Below, in pieces: positions 2,700 through 11,373 of a DNA stretch of 11,373 nucleotides. Position 1 is the stretch's first letter. Every line of letters begins with the position of its first letter. A program made the position numbers and the translations under genes. The stretch is from Acidimicrobiales bacterium (GTDB lineage Bacteria; Actinomycetota; Acidimicrobiia; Acidimicrobiales; Poriferisodaliceae). A model generated the notes under the pieces. It had not been told where the DNA came from. It saw only the letters and a list, made by a program, of their open reading frames with translations, and ran no database searches. The stretch lies in NCBI GenBank assembly GCA_020631315.1, contig JAHDHM010000079.1, positions 1 through 11,373 on the forward strand. Reading direction: 5' to 3'.

Positions 2700-3323
2700 C
2701 CGGGCGGTATCCGGGCGCCTGAACGTCATGCCGAACACGGCGGCGAGCATGGCCAACGCCAGCAGGGCCGGGCCGAGCCAGGCCGGTGGTCGGTGCCACC
2801 ACGGCGTCGCGGAGCACGGTGAGGCGTCGACGGCGGCCGCGCGGAACGCCGCAACGCCATCGAACGAGGCTCGGCCAGATGCGACGCCGTCGACGCGCAC
2901 CGGAAGCCACACGCCGGTCGACACCGCTCGCCGGTCGGTGACGACGTTGATCGACAGGCGCTCCGACGAGCCGGGCAAGACACCAGGGCCACGCGTCGTC
3001 GTCATTCCCTGCGGGGGTTCGCCGAACTCCAGCGTCTGCCCGGTGGAGCCGTCGCCGTCGAGCTGCCAGGTCGGGCTGCGCGGATCGCCGATGACCACGC
3101 GGGTGATCCGCTCCCCCGCACAGCCACCGAGCTCGATCTGGCTCGGCGACGACGACGTCACACCGACCAGCAGCGGGGTGCCACGAGTCTCCTGGACCCA
3201 CTGGGCGAGTTCGAGACCACCGAGCAGCAGGCCGAGCACTGCTGCGCCGAGGGCAAGGCGGACTCCGCCCACCCCAGCCAACCCGCGACTACTTGGCTCG
3301 GTAGATCGTGTCGGCACCTGCAC
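2667..3323 (-). CDS. Two-helix membrane protein of unknown function
   Basis: I do not recognise this 218-residue protein. A hydrophobic helix lies at about 21-42, followed by an exported-looking domain of about 140 residues rich in beta-forming stretches, with just two cysteines (C68 and C170) that could pair. A second helix at about 183-200 is followed by FRRP and a short acidic tail. Arg after the last helix suggests a cytoplasmic C-terminus, so the central domain would lie outside the membrane. The start is uncertain: GTG at 3323 gives a 35-nt overlap with the upstream lipoprotein gene, while TTG at 3281 or GTG at 3272 would begin just after that gene's stop; none has a strong ribosome site. 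The gene is read with the hydrolase upstream and ends inside the convergent kinase gene. The reading is supported by the two hydrophobic segments and by G/C-rich third positions. Confidence 0.7.
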   Translation of the reverse strand: MQVPTRSTEPSSRGLAGVGGVRLALGAAVLGLLLGGLELAQWVQETRGTPLLVGVTSSSPSQIELGGCAGERITRVVIGDPRSPTWQLDGDGSTGQTLEFGEPPQGMTTTRGPGVLPGSSERLSINVVTDRRAVSTGVWLPVRVDGVASGRASFDGVAAFRAAAVDASPCSATPWWHRPPAWLGPALLALAMLAAVFGMTFRRPDTARSEADDEAGAA

Positions 3324-4596
3324 TCGACACGGCAGGGTCGATCATCTCGCCCTCGCCGAACACCGAGTCGAGGAACCGCAGCACGAACGTGTTCGTGAGG
3401 TCCTGCACCCGTTGGATGGGCATCTGGCCTTCCTGGCAACCGGCGGCGGCGAACTCGTCGATGATGCCGCGCACGACGGCGGTGACCTCGAGGCCCGCCT
3501 CGAAGGCGTCCTGGTAGTCGCACACGTCGGTGAAGCTCTGGTGATCGGCGGCGATCAGTTCGAGCCGATAGTGCGGCGAGCTGTTCGTCAGCTCCCAGGC
3601 CCGGTTGACGTTCGGCTCGACCGGGGTGGTGCCGTCGTCGGTGCCGGCGATGACGAGTGCGGGGATCTCGATGCGAGCGAGCATCTCGTCGGTGAGCAGG
3701 GTCGGACCGGTCCGTGCACCGACAGCCGGTGCCAGCGGGATGATCGCCTTGACCCGGTCGTCGGCGGGGACGGTGCCGACGGCGTTCTCGAACCCGGAGG
3801 CGATGCCATACGAGGTGAAGCCGCCGAAGCTGTGGCCGGTGACGGCGATGCGCTCCGGGTCGACGATGGCCTGGATCGGGCCGAGGCCACGGTCACCGGA
3901 CAAGACGGTGTCGAGCACCCAGGTGATGTCGCTGACGCGATTGAACGCCACGGTGTCGCGGTCGTCCTCGGAACCGAGGAACTGTTCGACGGCCGTGTTG
4001 CCGACGTGGTCCGGTGCCACCACGACGTGGCCGTGACTGGCGAGCACCTCGGTGTAGTCGCTGTGGATGAAGCGGAGGCCGCCGGAACCGTGCGAGTAGA
4101 CCACCAGCGGGAACGGCCCGTCGGCCGAGGTGTTGCTGTCGTCCGCAGTGATGTCGAGCGCTCGTGGCGACGGGTACGAGTCACCGGTGATGAACGTGTA
4201 GCTCATCGGCTCCGCACTGACGCCGTCGGCGAGCGGGAACCAGACCTGGACGGCGAGCGGGCGACCGTTCTCGGTGCCGTCGAGCAGGATGTTGAACGAG
4301 CCGACGGTGTACGGACCGTCGCCGATGAGCTCGACCGCTTCCAGGTCGTCGCTGTGTGACGGCGTCGTCGTGGTCGGCCCGGGCTCGGTGGTGAGCGGCG
4401 CCGTCGTCGTCGGAGCAACGGTCGTGGGTGCTGCGATGGTGGTCGGCGCCGCCGTGGTGGTGACGGCAGTCGTGGTCGGCGCATCGGTCGTCGACGTCAC
4501 GGCCGTCGTCTCCTCCGGAGCGGTCTCGTCGTCGCTGTCGGAGCCACACGCGGCGGCGAGCAGCGCGAGCGCGAGCAGTGCGGTCAGGGTTCGCAT
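3289..4596 (-). CDS. Secreted lipoprotein alpha/beta hydrolase (PAF-acetylhydrolase/dienelactone-hydrolase-like)
   Basis: A 435-residue exported hydrolase. Residues 1-17 are a lipoprotein signal (MRTLTALLALALLAAAC), with C17 the expected lipid-modified residue. A low-complexity Thr/Ala/Pro linker (about 25-80) holds the enzyme away from the membrane. The catalytic domain follows, with the oxyanion segment VVYSHGSGG, the nucleophile elbow GHSFGG (S256), the acid in IAGTDD (D320 or D321) and H352 in AADHQSF, giving a complete triad in the right order. This layout matches the platelet-activating-factor-acetylhydrolase/chlorophyllase-like group of esterases, probably acting on an ester or lipid outside the cell; the substrate is not readable. 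GAGGA (complement of 4604-4608) lies 7 nt before the ATG and supports the start. It lies 81 nt downstream of the HAD gene and overlaps or abuts the membrane protein gene that follows. Confidence 0.9.
   Translation of the reverse strand: MRTLTALLALALLAAACGSDSDDETAPEETTAVTSTTDAPTTTAVTTTAAPTTIAAPTTVAPTTTAPLTTEPGPTTTTPSHSDDLEAVELIGDGPYTVGSFNILLDGTENGRPLAVQVWFPLADGVSAEPMSYTFITGDSYPSPRALDITADDSNTSADGPFPLVVYSHGSGGLRFIHSDYTEVLASHGHVVVAPDHVGNTAVEQFLGSEDDRDTVAFNRVSDITWVLDTVLSGDRGLGPIQAIVDPERIAVTGHSFGGFTSYGIASGFENAVGTVPADDRVKAIIPLAPAVGARTGPTLLTDEMLARIEIPALVIAGTDDGTTPVEPNVNRAWELTNSSPHYRLELIAADHQSFTDVCDYQDAFEAGLEVTAVVRGIIDEFAAAGCQEGQMPIQRVQDLTNTFVLRFLDSVFGEGEMIDPAVSSAGADTIYRAK
4370..4540. repeat. Low-complexity DNA coding the Thr-rich linker
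   Basis: Degenerate repeats built from GTCGTCGTCGG, GTGGTCGG and similar units encode the Thr/Ala/Pro tether of the lipoprotein on the minus strand. This is a protein-level repeat rather than a mobile or regulatory element. Such tracts can change length by slippage. Confidence 0.6.
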
Positions 4597-4658: not shown

Positions 4659-4690
4659 ACTCACAACTGGAATCAACTCACAACTGGAAT
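4659..4690. repeat. 15-bp direct repeat, period 17, at the HAD gene stop codon
   Basis: ACTCACAACTGGAAT occurs at 4659-4673 and again at 4676-4690, separated by CA. The second copy contains the end of the HAD gene (Phe-Gln-Leu-stop on the minus strand). The first copy lies just beyond the stop and would encode the same ending in another frame position. It looks like a recent tandem duplication. Confidence 0.9.
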
Positions 4691-5313
4691 GTCGTGTGCT
4701 CCAAGAGCTCGGGAAGGGCGGAGATGTCGTCGACGAGCCAGGTCGGGTCGAGCGCGCTCAGGAACTGATCGTCGCGCAGGCCGGATCGGACTGCGACCGA
4801 TCGGATGCCGAGTTCGTGGGCGGCCAGCACGTCGGATTCGGTGTCGCCGATCATCACGTCACCGCGGGACGCGAGGTCACCGAGCATCCTGGCCTTGGCG
4901 GTCCGGTCCCCCGGCTGCGCGGGCGCGCTGAGGACGTCGGCGAAATGGGGCCGCAGGCCGAGCGCGTCGAGCTGCGCCAGCAGGTTGTGGCGGTGCCAGC
5001 GGTGGGTGACGAGGTAGACACGAGCGAACGTAGCGAGCGCTTCGATGCACCCAGGTGCGAGGAGCGTGTCGAACGCCAGGAGCTCGGCCTGCTCGACGGT
5101 GTGTGCGAAGCGCCGGACGAACTCGCCCTCGTCGAGGTCCACGCCGGAAGCACCGAGCAACTCACCCCACTTGGTGCCGCTGCGTTTGGCGGGCCAGACG
5201 ACCTCGATCGGCAACGCCTCACCGCCGACCGCATCGACGACCCGTCGATACGTCTCGTGATGTCGAGCTGCGACGTCGACGACGGTGCCGTCGAGGTCGA
5301 AGAAGAGATTCAC
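4678..5313 (-). CDS. HAD-superfamily phosphatase (phosphoglycolate-phosphatase-like)
   Basis: A 211-residue hydrolase with the HAD core motifs: FFDLDGT at the N-terminus (nucleophile D6, acid/base D8), a helical cap at about 15-85, motif II in YLVTHR, a lysine in RTAKARML and the Mg2+-binding MIGDTESD (D157, D161). The length and cap position fit subfamily IA small-molecule phosphatases. The start is GTG at 5313, overlapping the ATP-grasp stop codon as GTGA; the first motif begins four residues later, so no other start fits. Tight coupling suggests that it acts in the same pathway as the ATP-grasp protein, for example removing phosphate from a precursor or product, but the substrate is unknown. 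The stop codon lies in a tandem duplication. Confidence 0.9.
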   Translation of the reverse strand: MNLFFDLDGTVVDVAARHHETYRRVVDAVGGEALPIEVVWPAKRSGTKWGELLGASGVDLDEGEFVRRFAHTVEQAELLAFDTLLAPGCIEALATFARVYLVTHRWHRHNLLAQLDALGLRPHFADVLSAPAQPGDRTAKARMLGDLASRGDVMIGDTESDVLAAHELGIRSVAVRSGLRDDQFLSALDPTWLVDDISALPELLEHTTFQL

Positions 5314-6416
5314 GACCCGGCGGGCTGCCCGGCAACCGATGCCTGGATGTCGGCGAGCCGCTCACGCGAACGCTCGACCGCGGCGACCGTGGTGAGCACG
5401 GGCTCGAAGTCGACGCCGCGGATCCACAACATGTCCGACGGGCACGGGTGCAACGCCGGCACAGGCCGTTCGAACTCTTCACCGAAGGCCAGCTGCACGA
5501 ACATGTGGGGCATGTTCACGCCGAGGGCCGTGAAGAACTCGTGGGTGGTGAAGAACCGCCCGATGTTGATCTCGGTCGGCTGAGGAACACGGTTGCGGTC
5601 GTAGGCCATGTCGACGCCGAACAAGCCGTGTGGCCGTGAGTCGATCGCCAGCACGGCCGCCTGCGCGACCTCGTCGAGGTGCGGATCGGCGTGGGTCTGG
5701 CCGACACCCGTCACGCCGGTGACACCGCTCGGCGCGATGCGAGACAGCTCCCAGCGCAGGCGCTCACGTCCCTGCGCGACGACCAGTTCGCCCTCGTGCC
5801 ACAGCGACATCCAGGTGACGGTCTGGGGCTCGAGCAGTTCGGCCGCCGTGAAGTTGCCGTCCCAGGCGCCGTTGCCGACGAGCTGCTGATGGTCGAGCCA
5901 GCTCTTGGCGAGCTCGACGGAGTCCACGGCCAGCGAACCACGACCACCTGCGCCCGAGATGGCGCGGACCCACATCGCACCGCCGAAGCGATCGAGCAGC
6001 TCCTGCAGGTCGGTGTCGCGATCGATCAGGACGGTGTCGGGCACCTTGATGCCCGCGGCTTGCCACTTGGCGAACGACACGAACTTGTCCTGGCAGACGC
6101 GCACGGTCTCGGCGTCCGGCAGGAACATCGGCGCGGCCAGCTCGTCGCGGCGGGCCGACAGGACCTCGATCTCGACGTCGTTCTGGGCGTGGACGAACTC
6201 GATGCCCTCGCGGCGGATGATCTCGTTCAGCACCGGGATGTAGCTCGCGTCCCTGGCGCTCGGCACGAGGTAGTGCTCGTCGGTCTCGGCGCGCTGGAGC
6301 GAGTACTCGTCTGCGTCGGTGGCGACGAGGTACATCGGCTCGCTGCTGGCACGCAGCGATCGGATGAAGTTGGCCGACGGGGAACCACCACCGCCGGCGA
6401 CCATGATGCGTTTCAT
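5310..6416 (-). CDS. ATP-grasp carboxylate-amine ligase-like protein
   Basis: A 368-residue protein resembling the CarB/PylC type of ATP-grasp enzymes. The N-terminal Rossmann-like pre-ATP-grasp domain starts with a glycine-rich loop (RIMVAGGGGSPSANFIRSL). The ATP-grasp fold follows: CQDKFVSFAKWQAAGIKVP at about 110-130, the flexible glycine loop VRAISGAGGRGS at about 150-160, the hinge strand AELLEPQTVTWMSLW, and the Mg2+-binding segment TEINIGRFF (E282, N284). These enzymes activate a carboxylate as acyl phosphate and join it to an amine or thiol. The start was set at ATG 6416, where the pre-domain begins; GAGGG lies about 10 nt upstream. The frame is open further upstream with no homology. 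The HAD gene overlaps its end by 4 nt. Substrates are unknown. It is divergent from the SDR gene, sharing a 150-bp gap. Confidence 0.85.
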   Translation of the reverse strand: MKRIMVAGGGGSPSANFIRSLRASSEPMYLVATDADEYSLQRAETDEHYLVPSARDASYIPVLNEIIRREGIEFVHAQNDVEIEVLSARRDELAAPMFLPDAETVRVCQDKFVSFAKWQAAGIKVPDTVLIDRDTDLQELLDRFGGAMWVRAISGAGGRGSLAVDSVELAKSWLDHQQLVGNGAWDGNFTAAELLEPQTVTWMSLWHEGELVVAQGRERLRWELSRIAPSGVTGVTGVGQTHADPHLDEVAQAAVLAIDSRPHGLFGVDMAYDRNRVPQPTEINIGRFFTTHEFFTALGVNMPHMFVQLAFGEEFERPVPALHPCPSDMLWIRGVDFEPVLTTVAAVERSRERLADIQASVAGQPAGS

Positions 6417-6566
6417 TGGTTCTGCACCCTCAGTGCGCTCGGATGTGGTGCCGCCACGGCCACGCACTGTATACGTCAACTACTCTCCGTGGCGAACGGC
6501 GGCGCTGGGTCCACCGACACGGCGCCGATGACGCAGTCGCACTTCGACGAATCGACGAGGACGAAC
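6417..6566. promoter_or_regulatory. Divergent intergenic region with candidate promoters
   Basis: This 150-bp gap separates the starts of the ATP-grasp gene (minus) and the SDR gene (plus), so promoters for both directions should lie here. The only A/T-leaning spot is at 6467-6486, with GTATAC at 6469-6474. Read on the minus strand, TATACA (6473-6468) is a fair -10 box for the ATP-grasp gene; no clear -35 stands at the usual spacing. On the plus strand TACTCT at 6481-6486 is a weaker candidate. I saw no strong inverted repeat for an operator. Confidence 0.35.
6557..6560 (+). promoter_or_regulatory. Shine-Dalgarno GAGG deciding the SDR start
   Basis: GAGG lies 6 nt before ATG 6567. An in-frame ATG at 6528 would add 13 residues unlike an SDR N-terminus and has no comparable site, so 6567 is preferred. 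Confidence 0.6.
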
Positions 6567-7406: not shown

Positions 7407-8528
7407 ATGTCGACGGCCACGATCACCGAACTCCTGCTGCACCGTCACGAGCTGCCCGTCGCAGGCGGTGAGTACGAGATGTCCACGTCCACCGTCGAGA
7501 CCCTCGTCTCGTGGGTGGTGGAGCTGCGCACCGACCGAGGCGCCGTCGGCTTCGGCGAGGTCTGCCCCCTCGGCCCGGCCTACCAGGCGGAGTTCGCGGA
7601 CGGTGCAGCCGCCGCCATCCTCGAGCTCGCGCCGACGGTGATCGGTCTCGACCCGACGCAGACCACGCTGGTCAACCGACACATGGACGCTGCGCTCGTC
7701 GGGCACAACTACGCCAAGTCGGCAATCGACCTGGCGTGCTGGGACGTCACGGGAAAGCTGCTCGACCGTCGCGTCGTCGACCTGCTCGGCGGCACCGATG
7801 CCACCTCCGTACCGACCTACTGGGGGCTCATGCCCGCGTCGGTCGAGGAGACCGTCGCCAAGGCCGTGTCGTTGGTCGAGGTCGGCTACGAACGCCTGCA
7901 GCTCAAGACCGGCGGACGGCCACTCGCCGACGACATCGCCTGCATGCGCGGCATCGCCGCCGCCGTTCCGCCGACGGTCAGGTTGCTCGCCGATGCCAAC
8001 CGGGGCTGGACGATGCGCGACGCGATGGAGTTCAGCATCGCCTGCCGTGACATCCCGCTGGCGCTCGAGCAGCCCTGCGCCACCCTCGACGAGCATCGGG
8101 ACCTCGTCGGCCGCGTGGCCCATCCGGTGTTCCTGGACGAGTCGACGACCGACGTGGCGACGATCGTGCGCATCGCCGGCCAGGGCATCGCCCAGGGATT
8201 CGGCATGAAGCTCTCACGCGTCGGCGGCCTCACCAAGCTGCGTGCCGTGCGCGACATCTGCGACGCCATGCGGTTGCCGATGACCGTCGACGACACCTGG
8301 GGCGGCGACCTCGTCGCGTCGGCCATCACTCAGATGGGCGCCACCCTCGACCCGGACCTCTACGAGGGTTCGTGGATCTCGGCGCCGTACACGACCGAGA
8401 ACTACCCGGTGCAGTCCACACCGATCACGGTCGAGCACGGACGCATCGCGCTGCTCGACGGCCCCGGCCTCGGCGTCGACATCGACACCTCGCACTGGTC
8501 GCTGCCGGTCGCGACCGTCACGGGCTGA
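7407..8528 (+). CDS. Enolase-superfamily (MR/MLE) enzyme, cis-3-hydroxy-L-proline dehydratase-like
   Basis: A 373-residue mandelate racemase/muconate lactonizing enzyme with a complete capping domain (about 1-130) and barrel. Mg2+ ligands appear at D196 (ADANRGW), E221 (ALEQPC) and D244 (FLDES). The acid/base lysines are K167 (LQLKTGG) and K268 (MKLSRVGGLTK), one on each face of the active site, followed by VDDTWGGD near 293. The capping-domain stretch GFGEVCPLGPAY, then AIDLACWDVTGK, LQLKTGG and DTWGGD are, from memory, typical of the group annotated as cis-3-hydroxy-L-proline dehydratase or related proline-type epimerases. In that group Gln often stands in the first place of the KxK motif. 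The family chemistry (proton abstraction next to a carboxylate) is secure; the proline-like substrate is inference. The ATG at 7407 was chosen because the capping domain starts there. Confidence 0.9.
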   Translation: MSTATITELLLHRHELPVAGGEYEMSTSTVETLVSWVVELRTDRGAVGFGEVCPLGPAYQAEFADGAAAAILELAPTVIGLDPTQTTLVNRHMDAALVGHNYAKSAIDLACWDVTGKLLDRRVVDLLGGTDATSVPTYWGLMPASVEETVAKAVSLVEVGYERLQLKTGGRPLADDIACMRGIAAAVPPTVRLLADANRGWTMRDAMEFSIACRDIPLALEQPCATLDEHRDLVGRVAHPVFLDESTTDVATIVRIAGQGIAQGFGMKLSRVGGLTKLRAVRDICDAMRLPMTVDDTWGGDLVASAITQMGATLDPDLYEGSWISAPYTTENYPVQSTPITVEHGRIALLDGPGLGVDIDTSHWSLPVATVTG

Positions 8529-8562: not shown

Positions 8563-9228
8563 TCAGCCGGCCTCGGGCACCGTCGCGTAGGCCCGGACGG
8601 TGAAGGTGCCGGCGCCTTCGAGCTTGGGCGGCACGGCGGTGAACGTGAACCCGCCGGCGGGCAGTTGGTCGAGCCCGCGGAGGTGTTCGACGATCGGGAT
8701 GCCGGCGCGCAGCAGCGTCGTGTGCACCGGTCGCTGGGCGTCGTCGGTGCTGTCGATGTTGAGCGAGTCGATGCCGACGCAGGCGACACCGGCGGCGACC
8801 AGGCGACGCGCTGCGTTCTCGGTGAGGAACGGGTGGTCGACGAAGTAGTCGTCGGTCCCGAAGCGTTCGCCGTGGTCGGTGCGGATGAGCACGGCCGTGC
8901 CCCGGTGACCCGCGACGTCGAAGTCGGCCAGGTCGATCGAGCGCTCCCCCACCCGATCAAGACACACCGCCGGCACGTCGGCGACCCGTTCGAGCGCGAG
9001 TCCGGTCAGGTCGTGACCGTCGGCGAAGCGGTGGTACGGCACGTCGAGGTACGTCCCGGTGTTGGTGCACAGGTGCACCATGCCGATCTCGAAGGTCACA
9101 CCCGGCCCGTAGGCCTCCTCGGCCGCCTCCCGGCTCAGGTGGACCTCGACCTCGGGCGTCGGCAGACCGGGATAGGTCTGCATGCCCGAGCTGATCGTGT
9201 GGCTGAGGTCGACGAGTCGGCGAGACAT
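8563..9228 (-). CDS. Cyclase/kynurenine-formamidase-family hydrolase with altered metal motif
   Basis: A 221-residue protein of the cyclase family (KynB-type formamidases, isatin hydrolase and related enzymes), of usual length. It opens with the family's RLVDLSHTISSGMQTYPG. The signature HxGTHxDxPxH appears as NTGTYLDVPYH: N56 and Y60 replace two metal-binding histidines, while D62 and H66 are kept. Further conserved elements are VLIRTDHG in mid-protein and GIDSLNID followed by HTTLLRAGIPIVEHL. I believe an Asn/Tyr variant is found in other actinobacterial members, so this may be a subfamily trait rather than a dead enzyme. Family members open cyclic or N-formyl amides. ATG 9228 was chosen because the conserved N-terminus starts there; the longer open frame is low-complexity. 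It converges with the enolase-superfamily gene and diverges from the 567-residue gene. Confidence 0.88.
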   Translation of the reverse strand: MSRRLVDLSHTISSGMQTYPGLPTPEVEVHLSREAAEEAYGPGVTFEIGMVHLCTNTGTYLDVPYHRFADGHDLTGLALERVADVPAVCLDRVGERSIDLADFDVAGHRGTAVLIRTDHGERFGTDDYFVDHPFLTENAARRLVAAGVACVGIDSLNIDSTDDAQRPVHTTLLRAGIPIVEHLRGLDQLPAGGFTFTAVPPKLEGAGTFTVRAYATVPEAG

Positions 9229-9236
9229 CGCCGAGG

Positions 9237-9242
9237 ATCCTA
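9237..9242 (-). promoter_or_regulatory. TAGGAT -10 box, likely leaderless start of the cyclase gene
   Basis: On the minus strand TAGGAT lies 8 nt before the ATG at 9228. It matches TANNNT and the spacing seen ahead of the enolase-superfamily gene. The transcript would begin at or within a base or two of the start codon. No convincing -35 box is present. Confidence 0.42.
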
Positions 9243-9261
9243 CGACCGAGGCACCCTGCCC

Positions 9262-9267
9262 TAGAGT
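9262..9267 (+). promoter_or_regulatory. TAGAGT -10 box for the 567-residue gene
   Basis: TAGAGT matches TANNNT and would start transcription near 9274, leaving a leader of about 22 nt with the strong ribosome site at 9285-9290. It lies in the 67-bp divergent gap, only 19 bp from the minus-strand box, so one bound protein could affect both. Confidence 0.4.
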
Positions 9268-9284
9268 TCGGGGTTCCGCCGAGC

Positions 9285-9290
9285 AGGAGG
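9285..9290 (+). promoter_or_regulatory. Strong Shine-Dalgarno AGGAGG deciding the start at 9296
   Basis: A perfect AGGAGG lies 5 nt before ATG 9296. The frame is open back to about 9182, but that part overlaps the cyclase gene on the other strand and lacks a ribosome site, so 9296 is the start. It is the best ribosome site in the window. Confidence 0.85.
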
Positions 9291-9295
9291 GGCCG

Positions 9296-10999
9296 ATGGC
9301 GACCAGCACCAACGCGCCATCGCTGCTCGATCGGCTGCTCGACGCCGAGGAACGAGTGCGCGCCCCCGAGGTGGTCCTGGACCCCGCCGTGATGGGCGCC
9401 GCCCGCCTCACCCGCTACAGCTTCAACCGGACGATGCTGCGACGTGCTGCGGCCGACGGCTGGACCGCCCGCCTCGCCGTGCAGGAGTTGGACGACGACG
9501 GCCGAGGCCGCAGCGTCTACGAGATCGACACCGGCACCCACCTGTTCAGCTTCGTGGCCGTGACGACCACGATCGACGAGGCCGACCACACGGACAGGGT
9601 GATCGCCGACCGTTGGGAGATCGCCGCCGTCCTCGCCGAGGGTGAGGTGCGCGGCGAGCGGCTCGACCGGTTGTGCCGTCTGGCTCCCGGCCAGGAGTCG
9701 GCGCGCCTCGACTCGTCGGTCTTGGTGCTCACCCGTGGCAACCGCAGCGTCCGGTTCTTCGACTATCTCGTCGAACGTCTCGCCGCAGGGCTCCAGCCCG
9801 AGGCGGACAAGGTCGGCGATGCCGGCTACATCATGCGGTCGACGGCCTTCTACGCCAACGGCAAGTACGGGATGCGTTCGTTCGAGGGCTACGACGACGA
9901 GCACCCGCTTCGAGCGCCGTACCGAGCGCAGTTCGTCGCCTCGTGGTGCTTCCGTGAACTGTCCTACGACGTGGTCGAACACTGCGCCAGGGCCAAGGGC
10001 GGCGACGCCGCCGTCGCGTTCGACGACGAGTGGCGACGCTTCTTCGGACTCGGCAACGCGACCGGACTCGGTCTCGTCCCGTACGCCTTCCACCACCCCG
10101 ACGTCATCCATGCCTGGTGCGGTGTGCGCGAACTCGCGCTCGCCGAGGTGCGGGCGCTTCCCTCGACGCCCGAGCGCCGGGCGACGTTGGAGCGTTGGCT
10201 CGAGCGTGCCGCGGCGCACGTCGCGAACGGCACCGACCGCGACTGCACACCGTTCCTCAGCCCCACCCAGCTCGTCCCGGTCGTCGAGCAACTCCGGGCT
10301 GCATGGGCCGAGGTCGCCGACGAACCGAACCCGTTCGACGCGTTCTACACACGCGGCACGACACTCGGCGTCGAAGCGCAGGAGCTGGCGGTGTCGCTGC
10401 TGGTCGAGCTGCACGACGGTGACGACGACCTGTTCGATCAGCTCTTCGTCGCCGACGAACGGCAACGGCTCGATCTGACGATGCCGGTCGGCGAGCTGGC
10501 CACAACGATCGACGGGCACTACGCATGGCTCGACGACCTGGCGCTCGACCATCCCGACGCCGACACGTTCTGGTGGGTCATCAGCGACAACACCGAAGAA
10601 CCGCGCCGAGTGCGCCGGGACCGGCTGGACCCCGAAGGCAGAGATGTCGCGATCGACGTCGCGCTGCGCGTCCACCGGCTCCGCGTCACCCTCGACGCGC
10701 TCGACCCGGCCCTGACCGTCGGCGAGCTGCTCATGGACTGGCCTGTCCACCGGCTGGCCGTGCGACGCGTCCAGAACCACCGAGGTCGCTACAGCGAGCC
10801 ACGCGACAACCCGTGCGCAGCCGACTACCTGCCGTTGCAGCTGCAGCGCTTCCAACTGGCGATGTACGGCATGGACGACTTCACGCCGAAGTCCACCGAC
10901 TGGCTGCGAGTCACCCTCAACCAGGGCGCCCCACGCTTCGCCGACCTCGGCCTCAGCATGACCGACGAGTGGGCACTCCCGGCACGCCCGGCTTCCTGA
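9296..10999 (+). CDS. Unrecognised 567-residue soluble protein
   Basis: I do not recognise this protein. It is 567 residues with no signal peptide or membrane helix, so probably cytoplasmic; it is acidic and rich in Trp, Tyr, Arg and Asp. Segments that look structured are RLTRYSFNRTMLRRAAADGW (about 37-56), AFYANGKYGMRSFEGYDDEH (about 182-201), an internal GNATGLGLVPYAFHHPDVIH near 250-270, FWWVISDNTEE near 424 and a C-terminal DFTPKSTDWLRVTLNQGAP. His, Asp and Arg clusters in the middle could form an active site, but no known nucleotide, metal or nucleophile motif stands out. The codon pattern is like its neighbours, so it is not a recent foreign gene. The strong ribosome site suggests high expression. 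It diverges from the cyclase gene, and the M19 gene begins 19 nt downstream, so it is probably part of the same catabolic unit. Confidence 0.85.
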   Translation: MATSTNAPSLLDRLLDAEERVRAPEVVLDPAVMGAARLTRYSFNRTMLRRAAADGWTARLAVQELDDDGRGRSVYEIDTGTHLFSFVAVTTTIDEADHTDRVIADRWEIAAVLAEGEVRGERLDRLCRLAPGQESARLDSSVLVLTRGNRSVRFFDYLVERLAAGLQPEADKVGDAGYIMRSTAFYANGKYGMRSFEGYDDEHPLRAPYRAQFVASWCFRELSYDVVEHCARAKGGDAAVAFDDEWRRFFGLGNATGLGLVPYAFHHPDVIHAWCGVRELALAEVRALPSTPERRATLERWLERAAAHVANGTDRDCTPFLSPTQLVPVVEQLRAAWAEVADEPNPFDAFYTRGTTLGVEAQELAVSLLVELHDGDDDLFDQLFVADERQRLDLTMPVGELATTIDGHYAWLDDLALDHPDADTFWWVISDNTEEPRRVRRDRLDPEGRDVAIDVALRVHRLRVTLDALDPALTVGELLMDWPVHRLAVRRVQNHRGRYSEPRDNPCAADYLPLQLQRFQLAMYGMDDFTPKSTDWLRVTLNQGAPRFADLGLSMTDEWALPARPAS

Positions 11000-11018: not shown

Positions 11019-11373
11019 GTGATCGTCGACGGACTGCAGATCAACAACTGGACCCGCCCGGTCATCGACGAGGTCCGCTCGGGTGGCGTCGATGTCGTCC
11101 ACGCCACGGTCGGTGTGTGGGAGGACCTCGCCGGCGCGATGACGCGCATCGGCGCCTTCCGTCATCTGTGCCGGGTCAACAGCGACGTCATCCGCATCAC
11201 CCGCACCATCGACGAGATCGAACAGGCGAAGGCCGACGGTGTGCTGGCGATCGTCATGGGCTTCCAGAACAGCTCGATGCTCGGCGACGACCCCGAGATG
11301 GCCGGCATCTTCGCCGATGTCGGGATCCGTGTCGTCCAGCTGACCTACAACATCGCGAACCATCTCGGTTCGA
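11019..11373 (+). CDS. Peptidase M19 (membrane dipeptidase) family protein, N-terminal part
   Basis: The gene starts at GTG 11019 and runs off the window after 118 codons. The start agrees with the family N-terminus (VIVDGLQINNW), and ACGAGA lies about 8 nt upstream as a weak ribosome site. The later segments AIVMGFQNSS and GIRVVQLTYNIANHLGS clearly match the M19 barrel (in classical members, EGG followed by a stretch ending in LT). The zinc ligands usually seen here, the HxD after the opening DG and the Glu of EGG, are replaced by LQI and by FQN. From memory this is a distinct M19 subfamily found near enolase-superfamily genes. It may still be a hydrolase with rearranged ligands or a different activity; the His ligands of the second half are outside the window. 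It probably shares a transcript with the 567-residue gene, 19 nt upstream. Confidence 0.88.
   Translation, partial: MIVDGLQINNWTRPVIDEVRSGGVDVVHATVGVWEDLAGAMTRIGAFRHLCRVNSDVIRITRTIDEIEQAKADGVLAIVMGFQNSSMLGDDPEMAGIFADVGIRVVQLTYNIANHLGS

Follow-up and report, generated by a model that had tools for sequence, protein, structure and literature searches.

In an 11,373-nucleotide stretch of DNA from an Acidimicrobiales bacterium (contig JAHDHM010000079.1 of assembly GCA_020631315.1, here referred to as the window), we have characterized a gene at 9296..10999 of the forward strand, which constitutes its own open reading frame (ORF) and encodes a protein of 567 residues that matches no known family. 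This protein is almost certainly a core member of a conserved module whose other two components are a DUF3726-type protein and an altered protein of the M19 family. Judged from sequence, we propose that the 567-residue protein, which has no name so far, may be the first member of this module and that the module serves the catabolism of N-methylated cyclic betaines, most likely homarine, where the protein would act early on the ring, a reading that we regard as evenly poised between right and wrong. Homarine is N-methylpicolinate.

Gene neighbourhood of the 567-residue protein and its relatives

Relatives of the 567-residue protein number in the thousands and are found in Actinomycetota and Proteobacteria. 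A search with the window protein retrieved 324 homologues at E≤0.001, including two full-length proteins of 84% and 77% identity, and a search with a proteobacterial member returned at least 7998 clusters at the same threshold. In a tree of 115 rows, which was calculated with a quick method and SH-aLRT support, the window protein groups with the relative P0003 inside the Acidimicrobiia clade, which comprises 67 rows and has a support of 100.

The gene neighbourhood was surveyed in 94 loci, comprising the best 80 of 95 relatives residing in genome contigs and 14 loci fetched from the 168 plasmid records that gave a match. Since the queries for the DUF3726-type partner and for M19 were partly drawn from the counted loci, the resulting counts measure presence and place. 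An M19 gene is found on the same strand within 75 nucleotides downstream of the 567-residue gene in 70 of the 80 genome loci, and three of the remaining ten are located on contigs that stop with this gene (L049, L060, L066). A DUF3726-type gene is present in 68 of the 80. On plasmids, the DUF3726-type gene directly follows the 567-residue gene in all 14 loci, each of which also contains an M19 gene within 2.7 kb. An earlier interpretation that was made from the letters of the window alone (the sequence-only reading) had placed the protein in a catabolic locus and named constant pairing with M19, cyclase and enolase-superfamily genes as a check. The homologues do sit in catabolic clusters and retain their M19 neighbour instead of occurring in unrelated contexts. 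Conversely, the cyclase of the window, when sought by tblastn, was found in none of the 80 genome and none of the 14 plasmid loci, a search that a very distant cyclase could escape, and its enolase was matched in only four of the 94 loci (one of 80 on genomes and three of 14 on plasmids; L080, L081, L084, L093), at distances of 5.3-8.8 kb and never adjacent. With this distribution, both were dropped as members of the module.

The linkage is also manifested in a survey of 396 genomes of the phylum, where the 567-residue protein was found in five and its DUF3726-type partner in the same five. The M19 profile matches 105 of the 396 genomes, and its five best scores fall in the five genomes containing the 567-residue protein, where all three genes are direct neighbours on one contig. 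Among these genomes, two (G001 and G271, the latter identical to locus L017) helped to build the profiles, and G095, G137 and G159 are thus the independent cases. In these, the DUF3726-type partner is matched partially and weakly, with E-values from 2.7e-9 to 7.6e-7. As no more than eight candidates per genome were scored in the search for this partner, absences are less certain than presences.

Properties of the 567-residue protein

The segment 9296-10999 is a real gene, with a GC content by codon position of 0.73/0.47/0.88 that is of coding type. The mechanically called ORF begins at ATG 9182 and would encode 605 residues, but we prefer the start at 9296 because of the start sites of homologues and the position of a ribosome-binding site AGGAGG on the same strand (9285..9290), which is located 5 nucleotides upstream of this ATG and was correctly described as perfect in the sequence-only reading. 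The gene had also been credited with its own TAGAGT box. This hexamer is present at 9262-9267, but a scan of the region 9100-9400 found no sigma-70-like promoter, and the box consequently remains a hexamer alone.

Searches of the protein against Pfam, NCBIfam, PHROG, PADLOC and PDB sequences gave no family match, in line with the initial impression that it carries no recognizable motif. An AlphaFold model was obtained with a pLDDT of 88 and a pTM of 0.89, and a fold search of this model in the PDB revealed no convincing likeness to solved structures, with T-fold and START-like folds among the candidates considered. The profile and fold searches, which had been named as a check, hence led to neither a characterized family nor a confident PDB fold. 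No functional study of the protein was found in the accessible literature on homarine genes, betaine/M19 clusters, DUF3726 and Pseudomonas relatives. Among the 120 matches listed for the proteobacterial member, source names read 'hypothetical' or 'uncharacterized' with the exception of P0282 and of one entry carrying a bare MGnify tag. The UniRef name of P0282, from Tritonibacter scottomollicae, begins with 'Zorya protein', which looks like a naming error; the window protein is without a PADLOC defence family. A TetR domain is found on the relative P0091.

The protein had been described as soluble, and we detected no membrane segment in its sequence, with a top Kyte-Doolittle mean of 0.96 over 19 residues. 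Within 113 family members, 47 positions are conserved in at least 98% of sequences, encompassing 13 Arg, 4 Trp, 1 His and 1 Tyr. Of the conserved clusters of Trp, Tyr, His and Arg that had been noticed in the window protein, Arg and Trp are thus better borne out than His and Tyr. The accompanying suggestion of an enzyme or a binding protein for the pathway substrate remains plausible.

The altered M19 partner

The M19-family gene of the window begins 19 nucleotides past the stop codon of the 567-residue gene and is cut at the window end, which leaves its 5' part at 11019..11373 of the forward strand. The encoded fragment matches Pfam PF01244 (E 1.3e-17, 64.4 bits with a cut-off of 26) and shares 73-88% identity with the directly downstream gene in closer Acidimicrobiia loci. 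When aligned to full-length relatives, the His of its HxD motif is replaced by Leu, the bridging Glu by Gln and the His of the LTH motif by Tyr, changes of the active site that had gone unnoticed in the sequence-only reading. The HxD motif and the bridging Glu are, in role and numbering, positions that we take to be metal ligands of M19 enzymes. Operon partners score 217-250 bits against PF01244, the membrane dipeptidase family, and retain its two later His and the later Asp, but differ from it in the substituted HxD and bridging Glu. All 12 aligned rows, one of them from the window, have Leu at the site of the HxD His and Gln at that of the bridging Glu, and the first of these sites is Asn or Val in L108, L110 and L111. 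A GxQN segment is found in 84 of 88 M19 matches from the 94 loci, the other four being fragments that do not contain this segment. With its metal ligands lost, the protein was dropped as a candidate for a plain deformylase or dipeptidase.

We compared these proteins to 25 controls, the best-scoring M19 proteins outside the operon in the 396 genomes, of which 19 carry Glu and six carry Gln at the bridging position, the Gln-bearing proteins being the nearest relatives. The six led us to reject the idea that the altered M19 protein is unique to the operon; judged from the alignment, Gln at this site is the mark of a clade that is wider than the operon. Gln is likewise found in the M19 relative L112, which is encoded in a genome (G353) where no 567-residue gene was detected. 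The same substitutions as in the operon M19 are also present in PDB entry 2i5g, presumably the Pseudomonas protein of the dgcAB locus.

The DUF3726-type partner

The third core gene encodes the DUF3726-type protein and is, in relatives, located beyond the point where the window ends, out of sight for the sequence-only reading. Its association with the 567-residue protein is most direct in Mesorhizobium sp. 131-2-1 (L083 11947-14391), where both form a single ORF of 814 residues that is annotated as one gene, the only such fusion seen. For a partner of the Acidimicrobiia type (L009 12615-13151), the predicted structure matches the fold of Ldh_2, the type-2 malate/lactate dehydrogenases (PF02615). 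The protein has about half the length of this family, with 178 of its residues aligning to both ends of a 339-residue Ldh_2 chain and the middle of the fold missing. The absent part of the target fold is presumably its NAD(P) domain. The partner is thus predicted to be an Ldh_2 fold without its middle part, and the same shortened fold may hold for DUF3726 in general.

An [SA]HG motif is found in one of 55 partner rows, which is not decisive because 18 of 25 full-size Ldh rows carry CGL instead. Pairwise comparisons between partner groups with hhalign were uneven. The two Acidimicrobiia groups matched each other at 99.9, and mixed proteobacterial rows reached 93-96 with two groups from actinobacteria, but the DUF3726 rows gave 1.8 when compared with Arthrobacter, and most of the other pairs lay at about 50-89. 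Against Ldh_2, the pooled partner set reached 78, single groups 2.4 to 69 and nine controls stayed below 1. The link between the partner groups therefore rests on position and on pooled profiles. A joint alignment of fused and single proteins misplaced the single partners and was set aside.

Cluster types and proposed function

Several proteobacterial clusters share the gene order LysR-ALDH-M19-567-DUF3726-Ldh, where ALDH denotes an aldehyde dehydrogenase. This cluster is followed by a betaine ABC carrier in L082, L088 and L089, and in L086 and L094 a BCCT carrier is inserted between the M19 and the 567-residue genes, BCCT being found in five of the 14 plasmid loci. ProX-type betaine-binding genes are present in 13 of 80 genome loci, where they are located upstream, and in three of 14 plasmid loci; 12 of the 13 genome loci belong to a 32-row set of the tree that contains the window protein. 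No betaine-type carrier was found in the 11,373 nucleotides of the window. The ALDHs best match 2,5-dioxovalerate/ketoglutarate-semialdehyde dehydrogenases with scores under curated cut-offs, the Ldh fold family contains piperideine-carboxylate reductase, and purU and folD are found in L082. L082, L086 and L094 carry, next to the cluster, a regulator of AraC/DJ-1 type together with a soxBDAG-like operon. The Acidimicrobiia version differs from the roseobacter-type cluster, as M19 is located after instead of before the 567-residue gene and as the outer genes are different. In Arthrobacter-type loci the order is LysR-ALDH-567-M19-partner-RidA-transporter. A further type with the order IclR-567-partner-M19 and with polyamine-like ABC carriers and RidA (L087, L090, L092, L093) constitutes a separate, long-branched clade. 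Some of these IclR-type clusters have genes for a GabT-type aminotransferase or an acetolactate-synthase-like protein nearby.

The Arg- and Trp-rich conserved core of the 567-residue protein, its two altered partners and the downstream genes suggest an early attack on an N-methylated ring. In the mechanism that we propose, betaine carriers would import an N-methylated cyclic betaine, most likely homarine. The 567-residue protein with its Arg-rich core would, together with the dehydrogenase-derived subunit, bind the ring carboxylate and hydrate or open the pyridinium ring, and the altered M19 protein might then take over the resulting enamine or imine without classic two-metal hydrolysis. RidA, Ldh (whose family includes cyclic-imine reductases) and the aldehyde dehydrogenase would lead to N-methylglutamate, which a four-subunit Mgd-type enzyme could convert to glutamate and methylene-tetrahydrofolate. 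Substrate and reaction are what we infer here; the linkage of the genes and the anatomy of the partners are observed or predicted as described above. We are fairly confident that the module serves N-methyl/betaine catabolism, and homarine is probably the substrate of the roseobacter-type clusters. For the Acidimicrobiia-type member in the window, homarine or a close analogue is a choice with about equal weight on either side, and it is doubtful that the 567-residue protein itself attacks the ring. The broader proposal, that its family is a new enzyme class with an unrecognized fold, which attacks N-methylpyridinium carboxylates while bound to a repurposed dehydrogenase deprived of its middle domain and a repurposed M19 protein deprived of its metal pair, and which is spread over thousands of bacteria from sea and soil, is equally tentative.

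Several observations weigh against the role in homarine catabolism. Seven of the 80 genome loci (L038-L043 and L061) contain no adjacent M19 gene, although in four of them (L038, L039, L040, L042) the upstream edge of the locus, at a distance of about 9.5 kb, contains an M19-like piece. The window itself does not include the third core gene, and its upstream neighbours are unlike those of the relatives. A soxBDAG-like operon is found next to the cluster in only three of 13 annotated plasmid loci, the window being too short to show one, and SoxA/Mgd-like matches of any kind are present in three of 80 genome loci, with full-length ones scarce. Moreover, Mgd and sarcosine oxidase fall in one subfamily model and cannot be separated by the models used. 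Finally, IclR-type clusters have other carriers and neither ALDH nor Ldh neighbours, and substrates would therefore vary.

Alternatively, the module could be a general accessory complex, such as a scaffold, a sensor or a protector of unstable imine or enamine intermediates, that serves several betaine or N-heterocycle pathways, with the 567-residue protein not attacking the ring. We regard this as unlikely, but it has points in its favour, as two of the three core proteins resemble enzymes whose catalytic parts are lost, as the same core is shared by LysR/ALDH clusters and by IclR clusters with polyamine-type ABC carriers, and as RidA is found in 12 of 80 genome and eight of 14 plasmid loci. 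Conversely, 47 near-invariant positions exceed the needs of a scaffold, and there is no other obvious ring-attacking enzyme that is constant across clusters.

In a second alternative, the window gene would be part of a proline-betaine or hydroxyproline-betaine pathway, where the enolase-superfamily protein encoded at 7407..8528 of the forward strand (PF13378/PF02746) epimerizes the betaine on which the module acts. The closest solved structures of this protein are 4e8g (341 bits) and 2pmq and 4h2h (304 bits), the last being a 4-hydroxyproline betaine 2-epimerase according to the available part of PMC11961199. The K-D-E-D-K motif named in this source is readable by eye in the unaligned window enolase. 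Its nearest NCBIfam model, at a score under the cut-off, is cis-3-hydroxyproline dehydratase. The enolase may thus be close to the betaine epimerase and the area a betaine island. The same direction is indicated by GbcA-like Rieske oxygenase genes, which 20 of the 80 genome loci contain at a distance of at most 3 kb. BHMT-like genes are found in 12 of 80. We nevertheless consider this pathway improbable, since the enolase is matched so rarely and at such distance in the surveyed loci and since the order of genes in the window, with an opposite-strand gene separating it from the 567-residue gene, argues against a common operon. The 567-residue protein might also regulate the cluster or bind a ligand for it, without being an enzyme or a subunit of one, but this is least probable of all, given that the clusters have LysR or IclR genes of their own, that the Pfam search of the protein found no DNA-binding domain and that it is fused to an enzyme-derived partner in Mesorhizobium.

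Relation to known systems

A homarine catabolic gene cluster with the name homABCDER has reportedly been described by Ferrer-Gonzalez et al. in 2026 (Nat Microbiol 11:1531, cited in PMC13390433), and the pathway of the module is probably already published. Among laboratory roseobacters, Phaeobacter inhibens DSM 17395 and Ruegeria sp. TM1040 possess the cluster of the 567-residue protein, the latter with the genes TM1040_RS02315 to RS02345. In Ruegeria pomeroyi, tmaR adjoins mgdABCD, and Mgd takes part in homarine catabolism, as stated in the accessible text of PMC13390433. This arrangement resembles that of the roseobacter-type clusters, whose six genes have a soxBDAG/mgd-like operon and a regulator of AraC type as neighbours. 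A similar combination is found in the dimethylglycine demethylase locus dgcAB/pepD of Vibrio natriegens and Pseudomonas aeruginosa, where the N-demethylase genes have a hypothetical gene and one for a predicted dipeptidase next to them; the portion of PMC12093977 that was available makes no mention of a relative of the 567-residue protein.

Ring opening is known for trigonelline, an isomer of homarine, whose aromatic ring is opened by TgnAB, an enzyme that was judged unlikely to act on homarine (PMC8269262, available in part). Unlike TgnAB, the 567-residue protein matches no flavin monooxygenase family. The same partial source gives homarine as up to 3% of particulate carbon along a North Pacific transect, and a later correction states that homarine values were overstated (PMC10134881, likewise in part). 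If the 567-residue protein does carry out ring chemistry, this would provide a function for thousands of unnamed proteins and a marker gene for the flow of homarine carbon and nitrogen. The predicted shortened-dehydrogenase type of DUF3726 and the altered M19 protein make such a complex testable at once.

Other genes in the window

The neighbours of the 567-residue gene are arranged as previously stated, with M19 downstream, the enolase-superfamily gene nearby and a cyclase-family gene on the opposite strand. This divergent neighbour (8563..9228, reverse strand) encodes a kynurenine-formamidase-like protein (PF04199, E 4.1e-21), whose closest solved structures are metal-dependent hydrolases and kynurenine formamidases. 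Further upstream, library matches identify an ATP-grasp protein whose N-terminal domain is PylC-like (5310-6422), encoded adjacent to the gene of a HAD-type hydrolase (4678-5313), and a protein of the PAF-acetylhydrolase/chlorophyllase type (3289-4596). The last contains a Cys after a signal-like start and a Thr-rich linker and is apparently a secreted lipoprotein.
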